This document shows, piece by piece, positions 36,326-45,981 of a stretch of 64,000 nucleotides of DNA (positions are counted from its first letter, which is position 1; each line of letters opens with the position of its first letter). The position numbers were made by a program, and so were the translations under genes. The stretch lies in contig CP133595.1 in NCBI GenBank assembly GCA_031200235.1, positions 1 to 64,000 of the forward strand. The letters run 5' to 3'. The stretch is from Cuniculiplasma divulgatum (GTDB lineage Archaea > Thermoplasmatota > Thermoplasmata > Thermoplasmatales > Thermoplasmataceae). The notes under the pieces were generated by a model, which was not told the origin of the DNA, made no database searches, and saw nothing but the letters and a program-made list of their open reading frames with translations.

Positions 36326-36689
36326 CACGCATTTCAAATGTATTATAAATATATTGGAACCGTATTTTTCCCAGAATTCTGTTGTTGGGATGCTTCATCA
36401 CAATCCCTGCATCATAATTTGGCAACTGCAGGATAATGGATCTGGTTCATGAACTGCAAAGGTTCTTCCGGTGTTTACAAGGCATAATTTGACTGAAAAA
36501 GGAATATCTTGATTCAACCTTGGAATCTCTGTGCACGAAGATGAAAAATGGCTAGGTGATGAACAGATCATCCACATCATCCGGAAGCACTGCCATGAGA
36601 ATGGCCTCCGATGAAGTAAGTGGTTGCTGCCCATAAGTACCTCTGCGTGGAATAACAAACTTTATTGAGTGTGCAATGATCTTTCAATC
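36326..36689. other. Intergenic stretch of about 360 bp with promoters and one doubtful mini-ORF
   Basis: Holds the DUF72 promoter at the left and, at the right, a TATA-like AACTTTATTGA some 25-30 nt before the peptidase start. A 27-codon plus-strand frame at 36531-36614, beginning with GTG, is protein-like (VHEDEKWLGDEQIIHIIRK) but short; it could be a remnant or a real mini-protein. No other gene seen. Confidence 0.4.
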
Positions 36690-38450
36690 ATGAACGCCAC
36701 GGAAGCTTACTCCATAAAATTTGCAACTGATCTCAGCGTTTCAGGTGATACCCTGTTCTTTGTGCAGAAATACATAAAGAACGGAGAGTATAAATCCTGC
36801 ATTTATAGAATTTCAGGCAGTTCGGATCCAGAGCAGATCACATTTGGAGAATCGGAACGATCTCCCAGGCTGGTGGATGGCGTCCTCTATTACATCAGGT
36901 ATGAGAAAGAGAAAGAGACCCTGATGTCCATGGGACAAGGTAAGGAACCAAGGGAGATTGCATCCTTTGCCAAGATCGTGGACTTCTCCATTTCCGGGAG
37001 CGACATACTCGTGGTCGCCGCAGAAAAGGCTGACGGTGAACTCCCATTCTACGCCGACAGGCTGAAGTACAGGTTCAACGGCCGTGGCCTGCTTCGCAGT
37101 TATTACAACCTTTACAGGATTGGGGAAAATCCGGTTAAGATTTATGGAGGAAAGTTTGACGTGCTTGGGGTCAAGAGGAATGGGGGACGCATTGTCATAG
37201 AAACTTCAGAATTCGGCGATGATTATTCCCTGAGTGATCTTCTGGAGATTGACTCCGGCGGCAAAGTCGTGAAGAGAATAACGGGTGAATCTGCCGAAAT
37301 CAACGATTATGACATATCGGAGAAAGGAAGAATAGCATTTTCCGGCCACTACGGTCTGAAGCCATGGGAGATTAGCAGTATAATTTTCCCGGAGGAAGGC
37401 AGAAATATCGTTCTGGGCAATGATTCGGCCAACACAGTTATTTCGGATTCCTTTGCCGGTGCGAAGTATTCCGTCAGATTCCATGGGAATGATCTTTACG
37501 CCATTGGGCGGGAGAAATCCTCTTCATTCATATACCGCATTAGTAACGCGGTGACCAGATTGACTGAGGAGCACAGGAATATCACAGATTATGACGTTTC
37601 CGGGGTGCTGGCTTTTGCATATTCCACCCAGGAACATCCCTCCATTATTCACTTCAACAGGGAATATGACATGAATCCTGGGGTGCTGGGCAAGAAAGCG
37701 GATGTGATGGATATGGATGGAGGCGAAGGTTTTGTAATGTTTCGTTCGAAGGATTCACCTTCACTGGTTTTTATCCATGGGGGACCCCATGATGCCTATG
37801 GGCATTCTTACTTCATGGAATTCCAGTATATGTTCCAGAACGGATACAACATAATTTTCACAAATCCGCCTGGAAGCACAGGTTATGGACAGGAGTATGC
37901 CAGGGCCTGCGTGGGAGACTGGGGCGGTTCCGCATACAACTACGTTAAGAAATTTATCGGCGTTATTCGAGAGAAGTATGGAATCAATGAAAAACTTGGC
38001 CTGACGGGAGGATCATACGGCGGTTTCATGACAAACTGGATAGTCACGCAGACAGAAATGTTCAGGGCAGCGATTTCAGAGAGATCAATATCCAACCTCC
38101 TGAGCATGGTGGGCACCAGCGACATAGGCTTCTGGTTCAACACATTGGAACTGAATATCGAGAGGCCATATTCCATGGACGGCATGAGGAAACTGATGGA
38201 ACTCTCCCCAATCAGCTATGCTGAGAAGGTGAAAACCCCAACCATGCTCATAACAGGTGAGGAGGATTATCGCTGCCCAATTGAACAAGCCGAACAGTTC
38301 TATGTGGCCCTGAAGCTTAACAACGTTGAGACCGAACTGGTAAGATACCAGGGCGACAATCATGAACATGCCAGGAGTGGAGTACCAAAGAACATGGTTG
38401 ACAGACTGGAAATCAAACTGAAGTGGTTCGACAGATACCTGAAGAACTGA
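36690..38450 (+). CDS. S9-family serine peptidase (acylaminoacyl/prolyl oligopeptidase type)
   Basis: 586 residues from the ATG at 36690, chosen because a TATA-like sequence lies 25-30 nt upstream. An N-terminal seven-bladed-propeller-type beta domain (about 10-320) precedes an alpha/beta hydrolase domain. Catalytic triad: Ser442 in GGSYGGFM, Asp526 in GEEDYRCP and His558 in DNHEHARSG. The oxyanion loop FIHGGPHDAYGHS and TNPPGSTGYGQEY are standard for S9 acylaminoacyl peptidases. No signal peptide, so a cytosolic peptidase that trims short peptides, probably acting downstream of proteasome or VAT pathways; this is consistent with the archaeal peptide salvage role. Confidence 0.92.
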   Translation: MNATEAYSIKFATDLSVSGDTLFFVQKYIKNGEYKSCIYRISGSSDPEQITFGESERSPRLVDGVLYYIRYEKEKETLMSMGQGKEPREIASFAKIVDFSISGSDILVVAAEKADGELPFYADRLKYRFNGRGLLRSYYNLYRIGENPVKIYGGKFDVLGVKRNGGRIVIETSEFGDDYSLSDLLEIDSGGKVVKRITGESAEINDYDISEKGRIAFSGHYGLKPWEISSIIFPEEGRNIVLGNDSANTVISDSFAGAKYSVRFHGNDLYAIGREKSSSFIYRISNAVTRLTEEHRNITDYDVSGVLAFAYSTQEHPSIIHFNREYDMNPGVLGKKADVMDMDGGEGFVMFRSKDSPSLVFIHGGPHDAYGHSYFMEFQYMFQNGYNIIFTNPPGSTGYGQEYARACVGDWGGSAYNYVKKFIGVIREKYGINEKLGLTGGSYGGFMTNWIVTQTEMFRAAISERSISNLLSMVGTSDIGFWFNTLELNIERPYSMDGMRKLMELSPISYAEKVKTPTMLITGEEDYRCPIEQAEQFYVALKLNNVETELVRYQGDNHEHARSGVPKNMVDRLEIKLKWFDRYLKN

Positions 38451-38629
38451 CGAATGAAATTATCCCCGCCTCCCACCATGTCTGGGTCTGACTGCCAGTG
38501 TAAATGTGGTTCCATTATTTCTGCAAATACTCCTGGTTCAAAATGATAGGATCAGGTTTCTGAGCTCCTGGTCATTTAATGCCGATGTTAAAAAGGAAAT
38601 TCTATGGTGAAATACAGCCAGGTCGAAGT

Positions 38630-39478
38630 TCATACTACGTGATACTCATAGGTTTTGCCACCCGTAATGCCGGTGTGAACAACGAACAGTGAACCACCCA
38701 TGTCACCCGGTTCACCTGTGGATGCCGATGTCACATACAGGTCAGTCAGATCATCGCCTGCAAATGTGCAGGAAGTTATATTGATAGCCGGGAAGCGTAT
38801 CTCGTCAACCTTTCTTCCGCTATCTGGTTCGAATACTGAAATCTGGCCACCACCCCAGTGTGCCACCCATAGTCTGCCATCAGCATCTATGACCATGCCA
38901 TCCGGATTCCCCGGGAGATCCTTGAATTCAGCTGCCACCCCTATCCTTTCCAGATTCAGGGAAGAATCGTATGAATACGCATCCACCCTCCTTCTGGGCG
39001 TGTCAATATGATAAAAAATTCGCTTCCCGATGTCCCATGCTATACCGTTTGATATGGTTAGATTCACCAGCATCATTTTTGGCGACTTTCCCTTAAGACC
39101 ATAAAGGCTGCCAATCGGTTTACTCTCGTTCAGATCCATTGTTCCGGCCACGTAATTTCCGAAAGGATCAGCTTTTCCGTCATTGAATCTGCAACCGTCA
39201 TTCCCGCTCCCGATCTCTGTAATGAGCTCATGATTGCCATTGCTGTCAACAAGATAATAACCGTGATCAACTGTAGCCGCCATGTAGTTTCCATCAGTTG
39301 GAACGATTGACGAGATCATTCCAATTGAGTTGAATGTGCTTATCTTTCCTGACTCCAAGTCCATGGAATGATACCTTCTCCCCTTGATGTCGACCCAGTA
39401 GATTTTACGGGTTCTGCCGGCCCACGTTGGACCCTCTCCAAGAATGTCAAGACTGGGAGCAACTATTACAGGTTCCAT
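38630..39478 (-). CDS. SMP-30/gluconolactonase-family lactonase
   Basis: 282 residues from the Met at 39478, because a TATA-like AAATATTAAAATATG occupies 39493-39510 and an earlier Met would lie inside it. Beta-propeller with SMP-30 motifs: LGEGPTWAGRTRKIYWVDIKG near the start (metal Glu), CRFNDGKADPFGNYVAGTM, NGIAWDIGKRIFYHIDT, and the metal-binding NPDGMVIDADGRLWVAHWGGG. It hydrolyses sugar lactones such as gluconolactone, a step of the non-phosphorylative Entner-Doudoroff route used by Thermoplasmatales. Single gene. Confidence 0.85.
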   Translation of the reverse strand: MEPVIVAPSLDILGEGPTWAGRTRKIYWVDIKGRRYHSMDLESGKISTFNSIGMISSIVPTDGNYMAATVDHGYYLVDSNGNHELITEIGSGNDGCRFNDGKADPFGNYVAGTMDLNESKPIGSLYGLKGKSPKMMLVNLTISNGIAWDIGKRIFYHIDTPRRRVDAYSYDSSLNLERIGVAAEFKDLPGNPDGMVIDADGRLWVAHWGGGQISVFEPDSGRKVDEIRFPAINITSCTFAGDDLTDLYVTSASTGEPGDMGGSLFVVHTGITGGKTYEYHVV

Positions 39479-39631
39479 TTCTATTGATTGAAGGAGCATA
39501 TTTTAATATTTACCGAGCCATAGACGCTTCCAGGCTCAGGTTATAACAGTCAGGCAGATTTTAAACCGAAACTTTACACGGGAACAAGTAGAGTTCTTCC
39601 ACAGATATGAAATTCCGATGAGCGAAATTTT

Positions 39632-39655
39632 AAAATATAGACCTTTCTATATTTT
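39632..39655. promoter_or_regulatory. Perfect palindrome over the promoter of the exported protein gene
   Basis: AAAATATAG-ACCTTT-CTATATTTT: exact 9-bp arms, 6-nt spacer, ending 6 bp before the ATG at 39662. The right arm contains a TATA-like sequence too close to the ATG for usual spacing; the left arm's TATAG is nearer the expected distance. A regulator site is plausible. Confidence 0.4.
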
Positions 39656-39661
39656 ACAAAC

Positions 39662-40363
39662 ATGAGAAGACACCTCAAGGTCATAATTGCTGCCATACTG
39701 ATCTCTTCAGTAATCGTGGCTTCGATGTTTGTGTATGTAACAGGAGACCATTTCAGCAAAGATATATTTGTGAATACCGGTCAAAAGACATTCTATGTTG
39801 ATCCTTATAACAACTCAACAGGTGCAGTTTTTGTGATCAATTTCAGCCTCGAACATTATTCTGGTGGCCCAATAGCTTTTGCACCTCTTTTTACCGTGAA
39901 TTCTTCACCACAAAATATTACTGAAACTGATCTTATAACAAATCTTACCACTACCACGCAAAATGGTACGTATTTTTCACTTTATTATTCAATGTTTTCA
40001 ATGAAAGTAATGATCTCACCAGCAGCAAATAATCTAGGGTATGGCAATTTTAATTATTTACAGGAACCTGCTGGCATATCTGGACCTATGGGCTACAGTG
40101 GTGTGGGAACTGCCGTGGTTCTGTGGAATGAATTCTCGAGGGATAGATTATCGGTTGTGATGTCCCCTATAAACATACCTCAGGGAAACTACAATGTCAG
40201 TGTAACTTTAATGCTGTACAGTCATCAACCTTCACAGGCACTGCTTAATCTGAAGAATGTGAGCGCTTGGGTCAATCTGACCTCTTTGAAGATAATGTCG
40301 CAGACTACGTTCAATGGTGTCCTCAAGGTTTTTAATTTAACTGTCTCATCAGGAAAATTATAA
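39662..40363 (+). CDS. Exported or membrane-anchored hypothetical protein
   Basis: 233 residues. A basic MRRHLK start is followed by one hydrophobic helix (VIIAAILISSVIVASMFVYV, residues 7-26), then a polar extracytoplasmic region with several N-x-S/T sequons and beta-rich content. The base composition is AT-richer than that of the neighbours on the left, in keeping with the accessory-like stretch that follows. Family not recognised. It is next to, and upstream of, the tRNA-Leu gene. Confidence 0.55.
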   Translation: MRRHLKVIIAAILISSVIVASMFVYVTGDHFSKDIFVNTGQKTFYVDPYNNSTGAVFVINFSLEHYSGGPIAFAPLFTVNSSPQNITETDLITNLTTTTQNGTYFSLYYSMFSMKVMISPAANNLGYGNFNYLQEPAGISGPMGYSGVGTAVVLWNEFSRDRLSVVMSPINIPQGNYNVSVTLMLYSHQPSQALLNLKNVSAWVNLTSLKIMSQTTFNGVLKVFNLTVSSGKL

Positions 40364-40454: not shown

Positions 40455-40539
40455 TGCGGAGGGAGGGATTCGAACCCTCGGACCCCTACGGGAATGGACC
40501 CTAAATCCATCGCCTTTAACCTAGCTCGACAACCTCCGC
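40455..40539 (-). tRNA. tRNA-Leu (anticodon UAG)
   Basis: 85 nt, minus strand, 5' end at 40539. Acceptor stem GCGGAGG pairs with CCTCCGC, discriminator A at 40455, CCA not encoded. The D-arm holds GTCGAGC...GG, the anticodon stem is ATGGA/TCCAT with loop TTTAGGG (anticodon TAG), there is a long class II variable arm (about CCCGTAGGGG) and a T-arm with GGTTCGAATCC. It reads CUA/CUN leucine codons. No intron. Confidence 0.95.
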
Positions 40540-40763
40540 AATGTAATAAGGGATTAACCGGGAATATATGAAAGATGCTAAAAATTGTATAAAAGTGAGT
40601 AAGTAGTCTTTCTCTAAGAAGTGTGACTGGAAGAAGTTTGGATTAACTCTAAATGCAAATTTTTTGAATAATAATCTAAAACTGTGTTACATGGTTCTCC
40701 TGTACAGTGAAATTCATGGTGATGATGCCACACACTCCATCGCATTATTTGTGGCTTACTAAA

Positions 40764-40786
40764 ATGTATAAATATAAGTTATACAT
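40764..40786. promoter_or_regulatory. Perfect palindrome before vapB (candidate autoregulatory operator)
   Basis: ATGTATAA-ATATAAG-TTATACAT: exact 8-bp arms with a 7-nt centre, ending 11 bp before the vapB ATG and overlapping a TATA box. AbrB-type antitoxins repress their own operons from such sites. Confidence 0.6.
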
Positions 40787-40797
40787 ATAAACAGTAT

Positions 40798-41052
40798 ATG
40801 GAAAAGAAAACAACAGTAGGACCTAAAGGTCAGGTAGTCATACCAAAAGACATCAGGGATAAAATCGGAATCAAGGAATATTCTGAAGTTATTGTTGATA
40901 TTATGGATGATTCGGTTATAATACGAAAACTAAAACCAGAATCAGTAACTTATGTAGATTATTATTGTACAACCTATTCAAAGAAGCTCACGAAGAGGGC
41001 TGATATTAAGAAAATAACCGAGGAACAATATGAAAGAAACGTTTTACATTGA
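40798..41052 (+). CDS. vapB: AbrB/SpoVT-type antitoxin (VapB)
   Basis: 84 residues. The first 45 form a swapped-hairpin AbrB DNA-binding domain (TTVGPKGQVVIPKDIRDKIGIKEYSEVIVDIMDDSVIIRKL), a standard archaeal antitoxin N-terminus; the C-terminal tail (VTYVDYYCTTYSKKLTKRADIKKITEEQYERN) would bind and block the toxin. It overlaps the PIN gene by 23 bp, as in many vapBC operons. A perfect palindrome lies at its promoter. Confidence 0.88.
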   Translation: MEKKTTVGPKGQVVIPKDIRDKIGIKEYSEVIVDIMDDSVIIRKLKPESVTYVDYYCTTYSKKLTKRADIKKITEEQYERNVLH

Positions 41053-41446
41053 TTCCAACGTTTTCTTATACCCGGTACTTTACGGTGATCTTAAAGAGTC
41101 TGAAAGAGCAAGGGAGATATTATCACAAATAGAGAGAAAAGATATACAAGCATACACTTCAACTTTAACTTGGGATGAAGTCTCTTATGTTATTGAACGA
41201 ACCTTGGGGAAAACCGATGCTATTGAGATTGGCAAAAAGTTCCTGAATTTTCCATTCCTGCGATTTATAGCAGTAGACGATGAGGTCATAAGGAGAAGCC
41301 AAGCCCTCCGTGAAAAATACAACCTGAAACCTAGGGATTCTATTCACCTGTCTTGTGCAATTGAGCGAAATATCTTTAAAATTATAACAGATGATGCGGA
41401 TTTCGATGAAATCAAAGAGATCCAAAGAATACCTATTAGACGTTAA
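41030..41446 (+). CDS. vapC: PIN-domain ribonuclease toxin (VapC)
   Basis: 138 residues. FYIDSNVFLYPVLYG holds the first catalytic Asp (Asp8), TSTLTWDEVSYVI the conserved Glu, and the C-terminal RDSIHLSCAIERN and ITDDADFDEI carry the remaining acidic residues of the PIN Mg site. VapC toxins cut specific RNAs, often tRNA anticodon loops or rRNA. It shares an operon with vapB. Remarkably, its stop is followed eight bases later by a tRNA-Leu-like 5' half in the opposite direction. Confidence 0.88.
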   Translation: MKETFYIDSNVFLYPVLYGDLKESERAREILSQIERKDIQAYTSTLTWDEVSYVIERTLGKTDAIEIGKKFLNFPFLRFIAVDDEVIRRSQALREKYNLKPRDSIHLSCAIERNIFKIITDDADFDEIKEIQRIPIRR

Positions 41447-41454
41447 AGTGGCTT

Positions 41455-41497
41455 GACCCTGAATCCATTGCCTTTGATCTAACTGGACCGGGTCAGC
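41455..41497 (-). pseudogene. 5' half of a tRNA-Leu (CAG-like), truncated
   Basis: 43 nt on the minus strand align without gaps to bases 1-43 of the tRNA-Leu at 40455-40539: 32 of 43 match overall, 28 of 34 from base 10. In the anticodon loop the sequence is TTCAGGG, giving anticodon CAG (leucine CUG). The similarity stops right after GGGTC, two bases into the 3' anticodon stem; no 3' half follows. It looks like an attachment-site remnant or decayed tRNA gene. Confidence 0.75.
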
Positions 41498-41818
41498 AAA
41501 GATATCCTGTCTTTTTTACAGGAATAATTAGGACAGCATCGACAATGATCTCCTCCCCTATCTTTCGAAAGGGGATTTCCCGCTCAATTTCGTTAAAATA
41601 ATGGTTGAAATTACACTTATAAATATTATCATCTGGCAAGAGAAATGCCTGCAAAAGAGAGGGAAGAGCAAGTATCGGCAAGGAGAAAGATTAGTGATGA
41701 ATAGACCCTATAGATACGTAGCTCATTGAGATGGTCCACAAGTTGGAGACAAAGAGCCATTGATAAAGACCTGTTTTTCCAGTCTTGCCCTAAATGCGAA
41801 GTTTATAAACTTTAGTTC
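41498..41818. other. AT-rich stretch with hairpin and remnants
   Basis: TCCTGT-CTTTTTT-ACAGGA (41505-41523) is a perfect stem just after the tRNA half, perhaps a terminator for vapBC. A TATA-like CTTATAAATATT near 41610-41621 is followed about 25 nt on by an ATG (41644) whose frame stops after 19 codons (MPAKEREEQVSARRKISDE). A protein-like piece in a different frame continues to about 41820. This resembles decayed coding sequence. Confidence 0.4.
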
Positions 41819-42439
41819 TTAACATCGTGGTTCAGAATCATCTTTACTATCTGGGCCAGGCCATAATGGGTTCTTGATTTTGAAACCTTGGAAGAACCCT
41901 TTCTCAACGACATTATTGTCCATGTCCAATATAGAGAGATCAGGCATCTTAATTTTTTGCCAATCTCCATAACCTTTGGAAACCCCGAGGAGATGACTGT
42001 AAAGTATTGAAATAATCATTCCGTGAGAGACGATTAATATGGATTTACCAGGACCCCCTGCTATAAGACTTTTCAAACATGAAATTATCCTGTCTCTGGC
42101 AGTACTATAACTTTCAAAATTCTGATCATCACACCCGGAAAAATATTCCAGAACGCGTGTCCTGAAAGTCTCCTCATCTATAAATCCAAAGTATCTTTCA
42201 ACTTCTCTCAAGCATTGACGTTCTTCTAATGCAATGCCGAAAAACTCACTAATGATCAGTGCCGTATGTTTTGCCTTGACAAGCGGGCTGTAATATATGG
42301 TTTGGACATCGGTGATATCTACGCCCTTCATCATTGTTTTTATAGCATCAAACGAACCATCCTTGAGCTTCCACTGATCAGCAGGTATGTTTGGTACAGC
42401 CTCTGTTTCAGCATGCCTTACAACAAAAATTTTTGCCAT
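41819..42439 (-). CDS. Histidine phosphatase (phosphoglycerate mutase-like)
   Basis: 206 residues. The catalytic RHG-type motif is FVVRHAETEA (His9) near the start, with the second His in LIVSHGMIISIL, and ERYFGFIDEE carries the acid Glu. Such enzymes remove phosphates from small molecules or act as mutases; substrate unknown. The base composition is AT-richer than most of the window. The ATG at 42439 is supported by a TATA-like TTAATTATAA just upstream on the minus strand. It lies within the accessory-like stretch between tRNA-Leu and the mevalonate-type genes. Confidence 0.82.
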   Translation of the reverse strand: MAKIFVVRHAETEAVPNIPADQWKLKDGSFDAIKTMMKGVDITDVQTIYYSPLVKAKHTALIISEFFGIALEERQCLREVERYFGFIDEETFRTRVLEYFSGCDDQNFESYSTARDRIISCLKSLIAGGPGKSILIVSHGMIISILYSHLLGVSKGYGDWQKIKMPDLSILDMDNNVVEKGFFQGFKIKNPLWPGPDSKDDSEPRC

Positions 42440-42507
42440 TAATTTAAATTTGGATGGAACCTTTAATTATAAAAATTCGTTTCCCAATGTTAAAGAATCT
42501 AACAGAT

Positions 42508-42854
42508 TTAGTGAGAAAACATAAGCTGGATTAGTTCAGAGAGTATTGGCTTTCCTCATTCTAAGTGCGATAGGCCTATGTTTTTGGCATATGCCTAGAC
42601 CGCATAGTTGTCGCCGTCTTGTATCTCCAGTATAAAATCTCGAACGAAGCTTGGTAATTTCCCAATTACTTACTTCCTCTCCATGCTAAAGTATCGGGGG
42701 TTCCTGCTTCACCTATGGTGCCTTCATCATCATATCCAAAGGTCTTATTCCATTTCACACCCTTATTATCGGGTTTATGAGGCTTAAATTCCCCACTGCC
42801 CTTGGGTTTGCCCCATGCATATGGTCGTTTCCAATAGATTCTTCGTTTGCAAAT
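42508..42854 (-). pseudogene. Decayed or fragmentary coding sequence
   Basis: On the minus strand, 42854-42666 reads as 62 protein-like residues (RRIYWKRPYAWGKPKG ... TPDTLAWRGSK) without a normal start codon. Then, in another frame, 42660-42508 gives KLPSFVRDFILEIQDGDNYAV, stop, AYAKNIGLSHLE, stop, GKPILSELIQLMFSH, stop. The repeated in-frame stops with otherwise good protein-like composition suggest gene remnants. I do not recognise the source protein. A longer ORF on the same strand to 43094 is antisense to a real gene and was not used. Confidence 0.35.
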
Positions 42855-42914
42855 CTTCTCCTCTCTGAAGATTACAAAAGAAATTATAAAATTCAGTCGC
42901 AGTATCCGGTGGTC

Positions 42915-43520
42915 ATGGCAGAGATTGGTACTGATTTCAATATTGTCCAGCATATTACTCCAGCAGACACTGCCATTGTTGCCATAAATCTCACACCGGA
43001 CCACTTCAGGGATGTGTTCAGCAAACTTGAATTCCTGAATGCTGCGACCTACCTGCATAATCTTGCAGAAAAAAATAAAATTCCCGTGATTCACGTCTTA
43101 ACGTCCAATCCTCAGGACGGTTTCAAGACATACAGACAGATGAAGGCAGAAAGGAGACTGCAAAGAAAGGCACCAAAATCTGTTCTTGACCGAGATTTTG
43201 ATTCACAGTTTGCGTCAATGTTGGGAAGAATCAGTGATTCAATAAGAACAGAAAACGACGATATCTTCAGCAGCTCTACCCTCCTTGATCTTCTTGGTAG
43301 AAATCAGACAACGTATGCCCTAATTATGGGTTTTCACACTGAAACAGCAATATTGAGGAGTGCCCTGTCCGGCCTTGATCACGGAATAATGCCCATTGTG
43401 GTTTCAGATGCCGTTTCCAGTTACTCTGAGAGAATTTATTATGAGGCACTTGACATTATCTCCCAGTCAACAGAGATAATAGATTCAAGGGATTTGATGA
43501 AAAGATGGCCGGATCAATGA
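42915..43520 (+). CDS. Isochorismatase-fold protein lacking the usual catalytic cysteine
   Basis: 201 residues from the ATG at 42915, preceded at once by GGTGGTC. The fold is recognisable: TAIVAINLTPDHFRDVF (position of the catalytic Asp, here Asn), IPVIHVLTSNPQDGF, and YALIMGFHTETAILRSALSGLDHGIMPIVVSDAVSSY. In isochorismatases and nicotinamidases the last motif has a Cys (GxxTxxCV); here the position is Ala/Ile, so hydrolytic chemistry is unlikely or altered. It overlaps the next gene by 16 bp, and begins an operon with the P-loop kinase and decarboxylase-like genes. Role unclear. Confidence 0.7.
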   Translation: MAEIGTDFNIVQHITPADTAIVAINLTPDHFRDVFSKLEFLNAATYLHNLAEKNKIPVIHVLTSNPQDGFKTYRQMKAERRLQRKAPKSVLDRDFDSQFASMLGRISDSIRTENDDIFSSSTLLDLLGRNQTTYALIMGFHTETAILRSALSGLDHGIMPIVVSDAVSSYSERIYYEALDIISQSTEIIDSRDLMKRWPDQ

Positions 43521-44122
43521 ATCATTCAGACAGGAGAGCAAAGATCATCCTTATGGGAGGTATACCGGGTGTTGGAAAATCCAGCATATCCGGATACATT
43601 GCAAGAGAACTTGGCATTGACCTTGTACTTTCCGGTGACTATCTTCGGGAATTTGTCAGGCCGGTTTGCCCCGATCTTGAGGTTCTGCAGGTCAGTGTTT
43701 ATGATGCATGGAAGACCTATGGGTCGGAATCACAGAATACAGTTCTGAAAGGGTTCCTTGACCAGGCTAGAGTTATCAACAGTGGGACAAACGCAGTGCT
43801 GAAGCGCGCCATTGCCAATGGCGAGTCCCTCATACTTGAAACCCTGTATTTTGTACCCTCGCAACTTGATGAAAATGTTCTTTCGGAAATCACCCCGCTC
43901 TACATATACATCTCTGATAGGGACCTGAATGCAAAGCGCCTCAATGAGAGACAGCAATATACACATTTCAATTCCCCCGGAAAGAGACTGGCCGACCAGC
44001 TGGACCGTTACAGGATAATGATGTCTTACTCTTTAGAGGAGTGTGGAAAATTTGGTATCAGAGCCTTCGATAATCTGGATTATACGAAAACAAGGGAACA
44101 AATACTTGATTACGTTAAGTAA
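43505..44122 (+). CDS. P-loop kinase of the 2-phosphoglycerate kinase type
   Basis: 205 residues with Walker A GGIPGVGKSS (residues 18-27), an LSGDYLREFVRP acceptor helix like that of 2-phosphoglycerate kinases, and a lid rich in Arg (SDRDLNAKRLNERQQYTHF). Thermoplasmatales do not generally make cyclic 2,3-diphosphoglycerate, and the gene directly abuts a mevalonate-diphosphate-decarboxylase homologue (stop at 44122, start at 44123). A kinase role in the Thermoplasma-type mevalonate route (mevalonate 3-phosphate 5-kinase) is therefore an attractive alternative; this is inference from position. A second possible start is the Met five codons in. Confidence 0.75.
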   Translation: MAGSMNHSDRRAKIILMGGIPGVGKSSISGYIARELGIDLVLSGDYLREFVRPVCPDLEVLQVSVYDAWKTYGSESQNTVLKGFLDQARVINSGTNAVLKRAIANGESLILETLYFVPSQLDENVLSEITPLYIYISDRDLNAKRLNERQQYTHFNSPGKRLADQLDRYRIMMSYSLEECGKFGIRAFDNLDYTKTREQILDYVK

Positions 44123-45226
44123 ATGATAAGCATGTCCGATCCTAAGGAACTGGGAGACCTGATTCACCGGGAACTTATCAGGCTTGGCATATGGCGGGAA
44201 GCTGCAGTAGGTACCGCAAATCTGGAATCGGAAAAGACTGGTGTGGGCTACGGTTATCCCATAATAGGTCTTGAGAAGTTCCTGGGCTATTTCGACCGAT
44301 CACTGAATATTGCAAATTTTCCTTCTATATCATTGCTCACCGATTTCAGTTACGCTGTATCATACTGCAAATACATCGAGAAACCTGCATCAGACCTGGT
44401 TTCCCTTGATGGTTCCACCGACAGGAAGTATCAGGATCGTGCACGAAAGGCACTTTCGTTCTTCAAGAGCCTTTACGGTATAACAGGTTCATTCCTTTTC
44501 TATATCAGAAGAATAAGAAAATATGATAATGCAAAGGGTCTGGGAGAATCAGCAGCGGTGGCTGCAGCCGTGGCGAGATCGATCACATCCTGTGCACTGG
44601 AAGAAACCGCTGCCAGGAATGATGAACTTGTATCCAGGCTGGCAAGGCTTGTTTCCGGGTCCGGAACCAGATCGGTCACGGGTGGCGTGTCCATGTGGTT
44701 ATCGTATCCCTATATAAACGAGAAAGAATGCCATGGCATCCGGCTTCCCGTTGACCAGAAGAAGATCCACTTCGGCGCATTCCCCATGCCCTCAGGTTGG
44801 CTTACGGATGATGCCCACACGCTGGCAGAATCATCCCCTTTTTACGGCAGGTGGGAGGCTGAGAAATTTGACAGGATTCTTGAGGAAATACAGAATGGAT
44901 TCTCCATTGAAAATCTCCTGACCAGGGCACAGGATGAAATGTTCAAACTCAACTCCGTTATCCTCTCCACCGGGAACTTTATACAGATACCTGAAAGTCT
45001 TTCCATAATCAACGACCTGAAGGAATTCACGCAAAAGAATTCTGCACTGCATTATACTGCGGATACCGGCCCCAGCATAGTACTCATGAGCCAGGATCGA
45101 TCCGTCATAGAGGAATTCACTGAGGGAAGAAAGGAGAAATTTATCTGGGGAAAAAGCCCGGAAAAGTTGCCTGATGGTGACAGATTCGGCAAGGAGGCCC
45201 AGGAATTCTTCATGGAAAACGCTTAA
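44123..45226 (+). CDS. Mevalonate diphosphate decarboxylase homologue (probable bisphosphomevalonate decarboxylase)
   Basis: 367 residues of a GHMP-fold protein. The ATP loop reads NAKGLGESAAVAAAVARS (family form GLGSSAA), followed by VSRLARLVSGSGTRSVTGGVSMW, which matches the decarboxylase ARLGSGSACRS..GG block, and the late ADTGPS segment (Asp314), where decarboxylases carry DAGPN. Thermoplasma uses two homologues of this family: a mevalonate 3-kinase that lacks this Asp and a bisphosphomevalonate decarboxylase. The retained Asp favours the decarboxylase. It would release CO2 from mevalonate 3,5-bisphosphate to make isopentenyl phosphate. The upstream P-loop kinase supports a pathway module. 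Confidence 0.75.
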   Translation: MISMSDPKELGDLIHRELIRLGIWREAAVGTANLESEKTGVGYGYPIIGLEKFLGYFDRSLNIANFPSISLLTDFSYAVSYCKYIEKPASDLVSLDGSTDRKYQDRARKALSFFKSLYGITGSFLFYIRRIRKYDNAKGLGESAAVAAAVARSITSCALEETAARNDELVSRLARLVSGSGTRSVTGGVSMWLSYPYINEKECHGIRLPVDQKKIHFGAFPMPSGWLTDDAHTLAESSPFYGRWEAEKFDRILEEIQNGFSIENLLTRAQDEMFKLNSVILSTGNFIQIPESLSIINDLKEFTQKNSALHYTADTGPSIVLMSQDRSVIEEFTEGRKEKFIWGKSPEKLPDGDRFGKEAQEFFMENA

Positions 45227-45252
45227 TTGCCGTAATGCCATAGGAAAGAGTA

Positions 45253-45981
45253 ATGCTAGAACATCCAGCCCTGCAGGAGAGTGTTTTTAAGGATATTCCG
45301 AGGCTTCCCCATGTACGCCTGATGGATGTTTCCAGCATGTTCAGGATTGCGCAGGTTGAGGATTTTGATCCCAGAGGGGAAAGCAGGGGAAAGAACGTAC
45401 CATGGCAGACTATTTCAAAAGCAGTCCTGTTGAGGGACGATTACCGATGCAGGGTCTGTGGAAAAGGCACATTCACCCAGGTTGATTCTGCAGATCTTTA
45501 CAATAAGGTGCATTTTGATCTCGAAGTGCATCACATTGTGCCAAGAAAGGACGGCGGGAACGATTCCTTCAAAAATCTCATATCATTGTGCAGCGCCTGC
45601 CATCACGTAACATTCTCAAATCGGTATACAGGCGTACCTGTCAGGAACAGCATGGATCTATTCTCTTTCGAGAGAAAGATATTCCTGGCCATCCCGCCGG
45701 ATGAGACTCAAAATTTCTCAGGGCAACTGGAAAAAGGCACCCTGCGTGATTACCAGCGCGTATTTGATCAGGAGAACATGCGGCACGTGGTTGTACCCAT
45801 GAGGGGGGCAAGACTTGAGTTTTCAGCACTCAGGATTACTCTTGAGGAATACAGGAAAATTGTGTCCGGAATGATCCATTCCCTTGACATTGCTGACTAT
45901 TCAACATATGCTTCCGTAATATCAGGCAGCGATGAGAAATGCAGGTTCCTTACAGATTCCAACGGGTCGATCATTGCCTAG
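45253..45981 (+). CDS. HNH endonuclease-domain protein
   Basis: 242 residues. The HNH core is at about 60-120: RDDYRCRVCGKG (first Cys pair), LEVHHIVPRKDGGND (His-His), NLISLCSACHHVTF (Asn and second Cys pair), a complete zinc-bound beta-beta-alpha metal nuclease motif. The N- and C-terminal parts have no familiar domain. It follows the decarboxylase gene by 26 bp and might be in the same transcript, although no functional link is known. It could be a restriction-type or repair nuclease, or a solo element gene. Confidence 0.8.
   Translation: MLEHPALQESVFKDIPRLPHVRLMDVSSMFRIAQVEDFDPRGESRGKNVPWQTISKAVLLRDDYRCRVCGKGTFTQVDSADLYNKVHFDLEVHHIVPRKDGGNDSFKNLISLCSACHHVTFSNRYTGVPVRNSMDLFSFERKIFLAIPPDETQNFSGQLEKGTLRDYQRVFDQENMRHVVVPMRGARLEFSALRITLEEYRKIVSGMIHSLDIADYSTYASVISGSDEKCRFLTDSNGSIIA

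Follow-up and report, generated by a model that had tools for sequence, protein, structure and literature searches.

A vapBC toxin–antitoxin cassette, probably integrated, and a displaced tRNA-Leu 5' half at the tRNA-Leu(UAG) gene of Cuniculiplasma divulgatum, with related cassette arrays in its family

Analysis of a 64,000-nucleotide stretch of the Cuniculiplasma divulgatum genome (GCA_031200235.1, contig CP133595.1, positions 1 to 64,000; hereafter the window) demonstrated that an intact tRNA-Leu(UAG) gene is followed by the toxin–antitoxin genes vapBC and then by a degenerate 43-nt copy of a tRNA-Leu 5' half (Table 1). ARAGORN and Rfam placed these features at the positions given in a preliminary description of the sequence, and the description of the region as AT-richer was also correct, the G + C content being 34% in 40540–41454 versus 47% in the whole window. 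No integrase gene was found between the tRNA and the half.

Table 1. Features at the tRNA-Leu(UAG) locus of the window (positions in the window; +, plus strand; -, minus strand;., no strand assigned).
Feature	Position	Strand	Remarks
Left flank: S9 peptidase, SGL lactonase, 233-aa ORF	36669..40363	.	
tRNA-Leu(UAG), intact	40455..40539	-	ARAGORN and Rfam; putative integration target
Putative cassette right end: tRNA promoter and conserved upstream arm	40540..40685	-	Promoter of CATATATTCCCGGTTAATCCC type
vapB, predicted antitoxin	40798..41052	+	84 aa; AbrB/MazE-type DNA-binding domain (PF04014)
vapC, predicted toxin	41030..41446	+	138 aa; PIN domain (PF01850)
Junction from vapC stop to half	41447..41454	.	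8 bp; putative cassette left end
tRNA-Leu 5' half, nt 1–43	41455..41497	-	Displaced, degenerate; putative attachment-site scar
Histidine-phosphatase gene	41819..42439	-	Without counterpart in congeners
Right flank: isochorismatase, AAA kinase, MVD-like, HNH	42777..45981	+	

The two genes overlap by 23 bp with vapB upstream, which is the arrangement of type II VapBC modules, in which an AbrB/MazE-type antitoxin gene likewise overlaps the gene of a PIN toxin; the proteins themselves are nothing unusual. The domain assignments had E values of 2e-11 for VapB and 6e-21 for VapC, and no solved homologue was found by sequence. The conserved acidic residues are present in VapC and are kept in the orthologues read. 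VapC is under strong purifying selection; the dN/dS of vapC was 0.05–0.07 against orthologues with estimable dS, and synonymous sites were saturated in the other comparisons, so that most of the vapC divergence is old. Broken copies of vapC were observed in four genomes (G015, G024, G025, and G006), and in G012 a transposase gene separates vapB from vapC (L079 11139–13046). VapC had no match in IMG/VR and none in plasmids.

The half and the intact tRNA gene share one strand. Alignment to the genome's own tRNA-Leu(CAG) agreed with the likeness claimed for it at the outset, 28 of 34 positions from base 10, and its score against tRNA-Leu(UAG) was 22, the best of 2000 shuffles being 14; Rfam did not score the half as a tRNA. 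All five Leu isoacceptors are present as intact genes in this genome, including tRNA-Leu(CAG) at 1595255–1595339, and the half is thus not a missing gene. The CAG anticodon highlighted in the preliminary description is present in the half but is a weak clue, as the CAG and UAG genes are one base apart within this stretch and the half has many other changes. Because other halves adjacent to vapC carry different triplets, CAG is probably a later mutation. A search for a second half at 41500 to 42900 yielded nothing above shuffles. A maintained attachment site with a preferentially conserved core was rejected, since nt 22–43 of the half are only 75% identical compared with 70% for nt 1–21. An ancestral promoter upstream of the half was also rejected: the host type was the best match, yet 302 of 2000 shuffles did as well, which is not significant, and the flank upstream of the half is too decayed for assignment to the ancestral type.

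To place the locus in context, 76 genomes of the same taxonomic family were compared with the window genome. Most of them are draft assemblies in which repeat breaks truncate several arrays; the assemblies of the window genome and of G012 each consist of one contig. Synteny with relatives had been set beforehand as a check, and the relatives are not all alike, as a site without vapBC exists in the congener G004. On its contig C27, the HNH, MVD-like, AAA, and isochorismatase genes lead straight into an intact tRNA-Leu(UAG) gene that is 100% identical to that of the window. Contig C46, which overlaps C27, starts within the 3' half of this tRNA and leads on to the SGL and peptidase genes, the left-flank genes adjoining the tRNA 3' half here as in the window. 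The empty site therefore consists of an unbroken tRNA-Leu(UAG) between the same flanks, on two overlapping contigs. Empty sites were also found in other genera (G016 and G020), where the tRNA is directly beside isochorismatase. The right flank is kept beside tRNA-Leu, whole or partial, in G003, G004, G016, G020, and G063; of its genes, isochorismatase alone was seen near tRNA-Leu in G067.

In another congener, G003, this right flank borders a tRNA-Leu 5' half that is 98% identical over nt 1–44, and past this half lies a complete tyrosine recombinase within an element of at least 17 kb that reaches the contig end. The recombinase matched PF16795 (archaeal phage integrase; E value, 5e-42) and a solved SSV-type integrase domain, and more distantly related proteins occur in SSV viruses and in plasmids of the pT26-2 type. 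At E 1e-5, this integrase has no homologue in the window genome, and IMG/VR gave no match for the integrase or for the left-end pattern described below; degraded integrase remnants are present in G067, G012, and G084. The integration scar suspected from the window alone was supported by the empty site in G004, the integrase element in G003, and the layout of half, cargo, and intact tRNA in other genera. Judged by this sequence context, the half of the window is the displaced end of a tRNA gene and a presumptive scar of integration. Such halves are a general signature of elements using tRNA-Leu and are not private to vapBC.

The histidine-phosphatase gene beyond the half is present in 8 of 77 family genomes. 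The distance to isochorismatase minus the 621 bp of this gene is 658 bp, compared with 662 bp in the empty site. Because the gap without the gene equals that of the empty site, the gene probably represents another foreign insertion into the same hotspot. A 160-nt stretch of the window (41596–41752) is 68% identical to sequence near tRNA-Lys in G083 (L268) and also partly resembles sequence upstream of the G012 half (L079 6129–6206); this repeat is unexplained.

In other genera, between one and three small cassettes without an integrase are present, each with a toxin–antitoxin module (vapBC, MazEF, or RHH-PIN) and bounded by tRNA-Leu 5' halves. Written along the tRNA strand, the array of G019 reads half, vapBC, half, methyltransferase with MazEF, half, RHH/PIN, and intact UAG gene, and that of G063, at the isochorismatase locus, reads half, MazEF, degenerate half, vapBC, and intact UAG gene. 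Shorter arrays end on the intact UAG gene in G023 (degenerate half, vapBC, MazEF), G065 (half, vapBC), and G012 (half, MazEF; on a single contig). G020 has a half, MazEF, and the intact gene at tRNA-Leu(UAA), and in G024 vapBC and MazEF lie beside tRNA-Leu(CAA) with no half detected. The order of the vapBC, MazEF, and RHH-PIN cassettes varies. The spacing between vapC and the half is 8 bp in both the window and G019. The halves adjacent to vapC are degenerate throughout, even in G063 with its fresher outer half, and the vapBC cassettes may for this reason be old and now immobile. Over nt 1–32, the half of G005 agrees with the tRNA-Leu found in the genus of G005 itself. G019 also contains a full-length decayed tRNA-Leu pseudogene (L078 11758–11841), the 5' part of which is almost identical to the vapC-adjacent half.

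A left end, GACTTACTTCTGGAAGCATTTCTGACTGATTTGTCCAACGATTATTACA, follows the half in both the integrase element and the MazEF cassettes, and 35 nt of it are retained in the RHH-PIN cassette of G019. The same left end also follows a reverse-complement 3' half of tRNA-Lys(CUU), the anticodon being read by eye, in G088, G084, G019, and G012. An order-wide search found this left end only in the family of the window. The junctions adjacent to vapBC are without a long left end, and the approximately 80-bp left end of the integrase elements is not recognisable beside vapC of the window. The tRNA-Lys(CUU) elements (L173, L175, L176, and L177) are reversed and lie on the 3' half, with tRNA copies 1.4 kb (G088) and 2.8 kb (G019) apart; in G019, a small hydrophobic protein of 69 aa (64%) is common to the tRNA-Leu vapBC cassette (L078 3704–3910) and the tRNA-Lys element (L176 8354–8554).

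The right end of the window cassette showed 72–96% identity over 47–149 nt to regions upstream of tRNA-Leu genes or halves in G019, G035, G063, and G067, and cassettes of different genera thus have this arm in common. A promoter of the CATATATTCCCGGTTAATCCC type was found at occupied sites (G000, G019, G035, and G063), and the TTTTAATATACTCYCCGTAAATGTAGGAT type was found at the empty sites of G016 and G020 and at the displaced half of G003, with a variant of TTTTAATATACTCYCCGTAAATGTAGGAT in G004. This split is not absolute, as the occupied sites of G012 and G083 carry the TTTTAATATACTCYCCGTAAATGTAGGAT type at the intact gene. The tRNA-Leu(CAG) promoter of the window genome resembles the CATATATTCCCGGTTAATCCC type. 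The tRNA promoter of the window would have arrived with the cassette, a claim that therefore rests mainly on comparison with the congeners.

None of the four congeners has vapBC, and its distribution in the family is patchy (26 of 77 genomes, with distant homologues counted). In the vapBC nucleotide tree, monophyly of the genera was rejected (p-AU 6e-7 for g12 and 1e-5 for g3), and G031 (g12) was paired with G024 (g3) at 92% identity. The variable cassette order and the rejection of grouping by genus indicate that vapBC has been transferred from one genus to another. A tRNA-Leu gene or half is present within 4 kb of 13 of the 18 close vapC copies, compared with an expectation of approximately 2.5% per locus, assuming five Leu genes per 1.6 Mb; in four of these 13 cases, the count was of a half only, or the intact gene was truncated or farther off, and in G012 vapBC is 3' of the tRNA. 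Among the more distant copies of vapBC or MazEF, some were observed approximately 150–400 bp from tRNA-Val(UAC) or tRNA-Arg(UCG) (L082, L246, and L256), which suggests these genes as further docking sites.

Overall, the locus is very probably an integrated toxin–antitoxin cassette with an attachment-site scar. A tyrosine recombinase would cut the anticodon stem-loop of tRNA-Leu(UAG) and join the tRNA gene of the chromosome to a circular DNA, which would have carried vapBC along with a 5' half of tRNA-Leu and a tRNA promoter. The intact tRNA would now be driven by the element's promoter and 5' half, only its 3' half being host-borne, and the old chromosomal 5' half would have been displaced to the opposite end of the insert to decay there. 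As the vapBC cassette has no integrase of its own, it would have been mobilised in trans by the integrase of a larger element. Mobilisation in trans appears most likely because the cassettes share left ends, right ends, or both with each other or with integrase elements.

The preliminary description had proposed an element that kept only its toxin–antitoxin genes; the scar of an integrated element stands, but the modules recur as stand-alone units with element ends. In its full form, this explanation holds that one large integrase element at tRNA-Leu(UAG) was deleted down to vapBC, which was kept by addiction, with no mobile cassette involved. The site does host large integrase elements, as in G003, toxin–antitoxin genes are the expected survivors of such decay, and the integrase remnants in G067, G012, and G084 fit the same course. 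We nevertheless consider it unlikely, though deserving of attention: a small set of modules recurs compactly across genera in differing order, some with the left end of the element, and they occur at tRNA-Leu(UAA) as well as UAG. Independent decay would need to leave this same set of compact units every time. Since stand-alone modules recur, several of them with the end sequence of the integrase element, single toxin–antitoxin modules resemble cassettes more than they do the products of independent decay.

It is somewhat more doubtful that vapBC spread by homologous recombination between tRNA-Leu flanks after a single ancestral insertion. The flanking tRNA sequences would supply the homology, and the near-constant spacing between vapC and the half, together with the degeneracy of the vapC-adjacent halves everywhere, agrees with such a history. 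However, the G005 half matches the tRNA-Leu of its own genus, the neighbours of the cassettes differ, and a MazEF cassette is also present at tRNA-Leu(UAA) in G020. A functional RNA, either the tRNA decoy raised in the preliminary description or an antisense regulator of vapC, is very improbable. The half is antisense at the 3' end of vapC, and a tRNA-type promoter is still found upstream of the half in G019 and G035, but none is recognisable upstream of the half in the window. The vapC-adjacent halves have decayed to about 70–75% identity, those that were folded showed no common structure (z of -1.7, 0.6, and 0.0), their anticodon is not conserved, and like halves adjoin unrelated cargo. The decoy and the antisense RNA were accordingly rejected for want of a conserved fold, anticodon, or promoter. 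A chance likeness or a local duplication of the intact tRNA-Leu gene, less than 1 kb off, has a negligible probability and was refuted by genome comparison, as the alignment score was never reached by shuffles, the end at nt 1–43 recurs in several genomes with different cargo, and an empty site exists.

The cassette can be compared with several known systems. For the pTN3 integrase of Thermococcus nautili, which acts on tRNA-Leu, the minimal recombination site is nt 2–44 (PMC5495485), and pTN3 integration separates the tRNA from its original promoter (PMC5495485; PMC8371274). Both systems use the tRNA-Leu 5' half; the halves described here end at nt 43–44, and the 43-bp half of the window matches the pTN3 site in size and position. 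In contrast, the plasmid pTN3 encodes a suicidal integrase that is split on integration, whereas the G003 integrase is complete and lies inside the element beside the half, and the window cassette, with vapBC as its sole cargo, lacks an integrase. In Caldiarchaeum, a 1.8-kb recombinase element that varies in the population separates a tRNA-Thr 5' fragment from the intact gene downstream of it (PMC3293823). A 5' fragment parted from the intact tRNA by a small mobile element is common to both cases, but the Caldiarchaeum element carries a recombinase gene, with tRNA introns involved, whereas the cargo here is toxin–antitoxin genes.

The Islander survey required an integrase for each island and reported 159 islands with a 5' fragment among 3919 and only four arrays of three or more (PMC4383910). 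The tRNA islands, a well-known class when marked by a displaced fragment, resemble the present arrays in the regenerated tRNA and displaced fragment at their ends, the crossover in the anticodon loop, and the tandem arrangement (PMC4383910). The window has the intact tRNA with a displaced fragment in the same orientation, and empty sites exist (G004; G016 and G020), but it has no internal integrase; Islander would miss such integrase-less toxin–antitoxin cassettes. The arrays are also alike in outline to integron arrays, with single-function cassettes stacked, each with a recombination-site border, and toxin–antitoxin cargo. Unlike in integrons, the border is a tRNA-Leu 5' half rather than attC and the recombinase found (PF16795) is of the SSV/pT26-2 type rather than IntI, and the system is not a member of that class.

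Family-wide arrays of integrase-less toxin–antitoxin cassettes, by which a tRNA gene has its promoter and 5' half replaced, are apparently new; no account of such cassettes stacked at a tRNA gene was found in the open-access literature. We tentatively propose, with less confidence than in the integration itself, an integron-like system of the family, in which toxin–antitoxin cassettes dock at tRNA-Leu and are moved in trans by SSV-type integrases, each insertion swapping the promoter and anticodon-bearing 5' half of a needed tRNA. Island finders that demand an integrase would overlook such units. As the promoter and anticodon half of the tRNA would come from the element, insertion could alter tRNA expression. 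If this proposal is true, toxin–antitoxin modules spread among archaea as near-minimal units without an integrase of their own, and part of the clustering of toxin–antitoxin genes beside tRNA genes would be explained.
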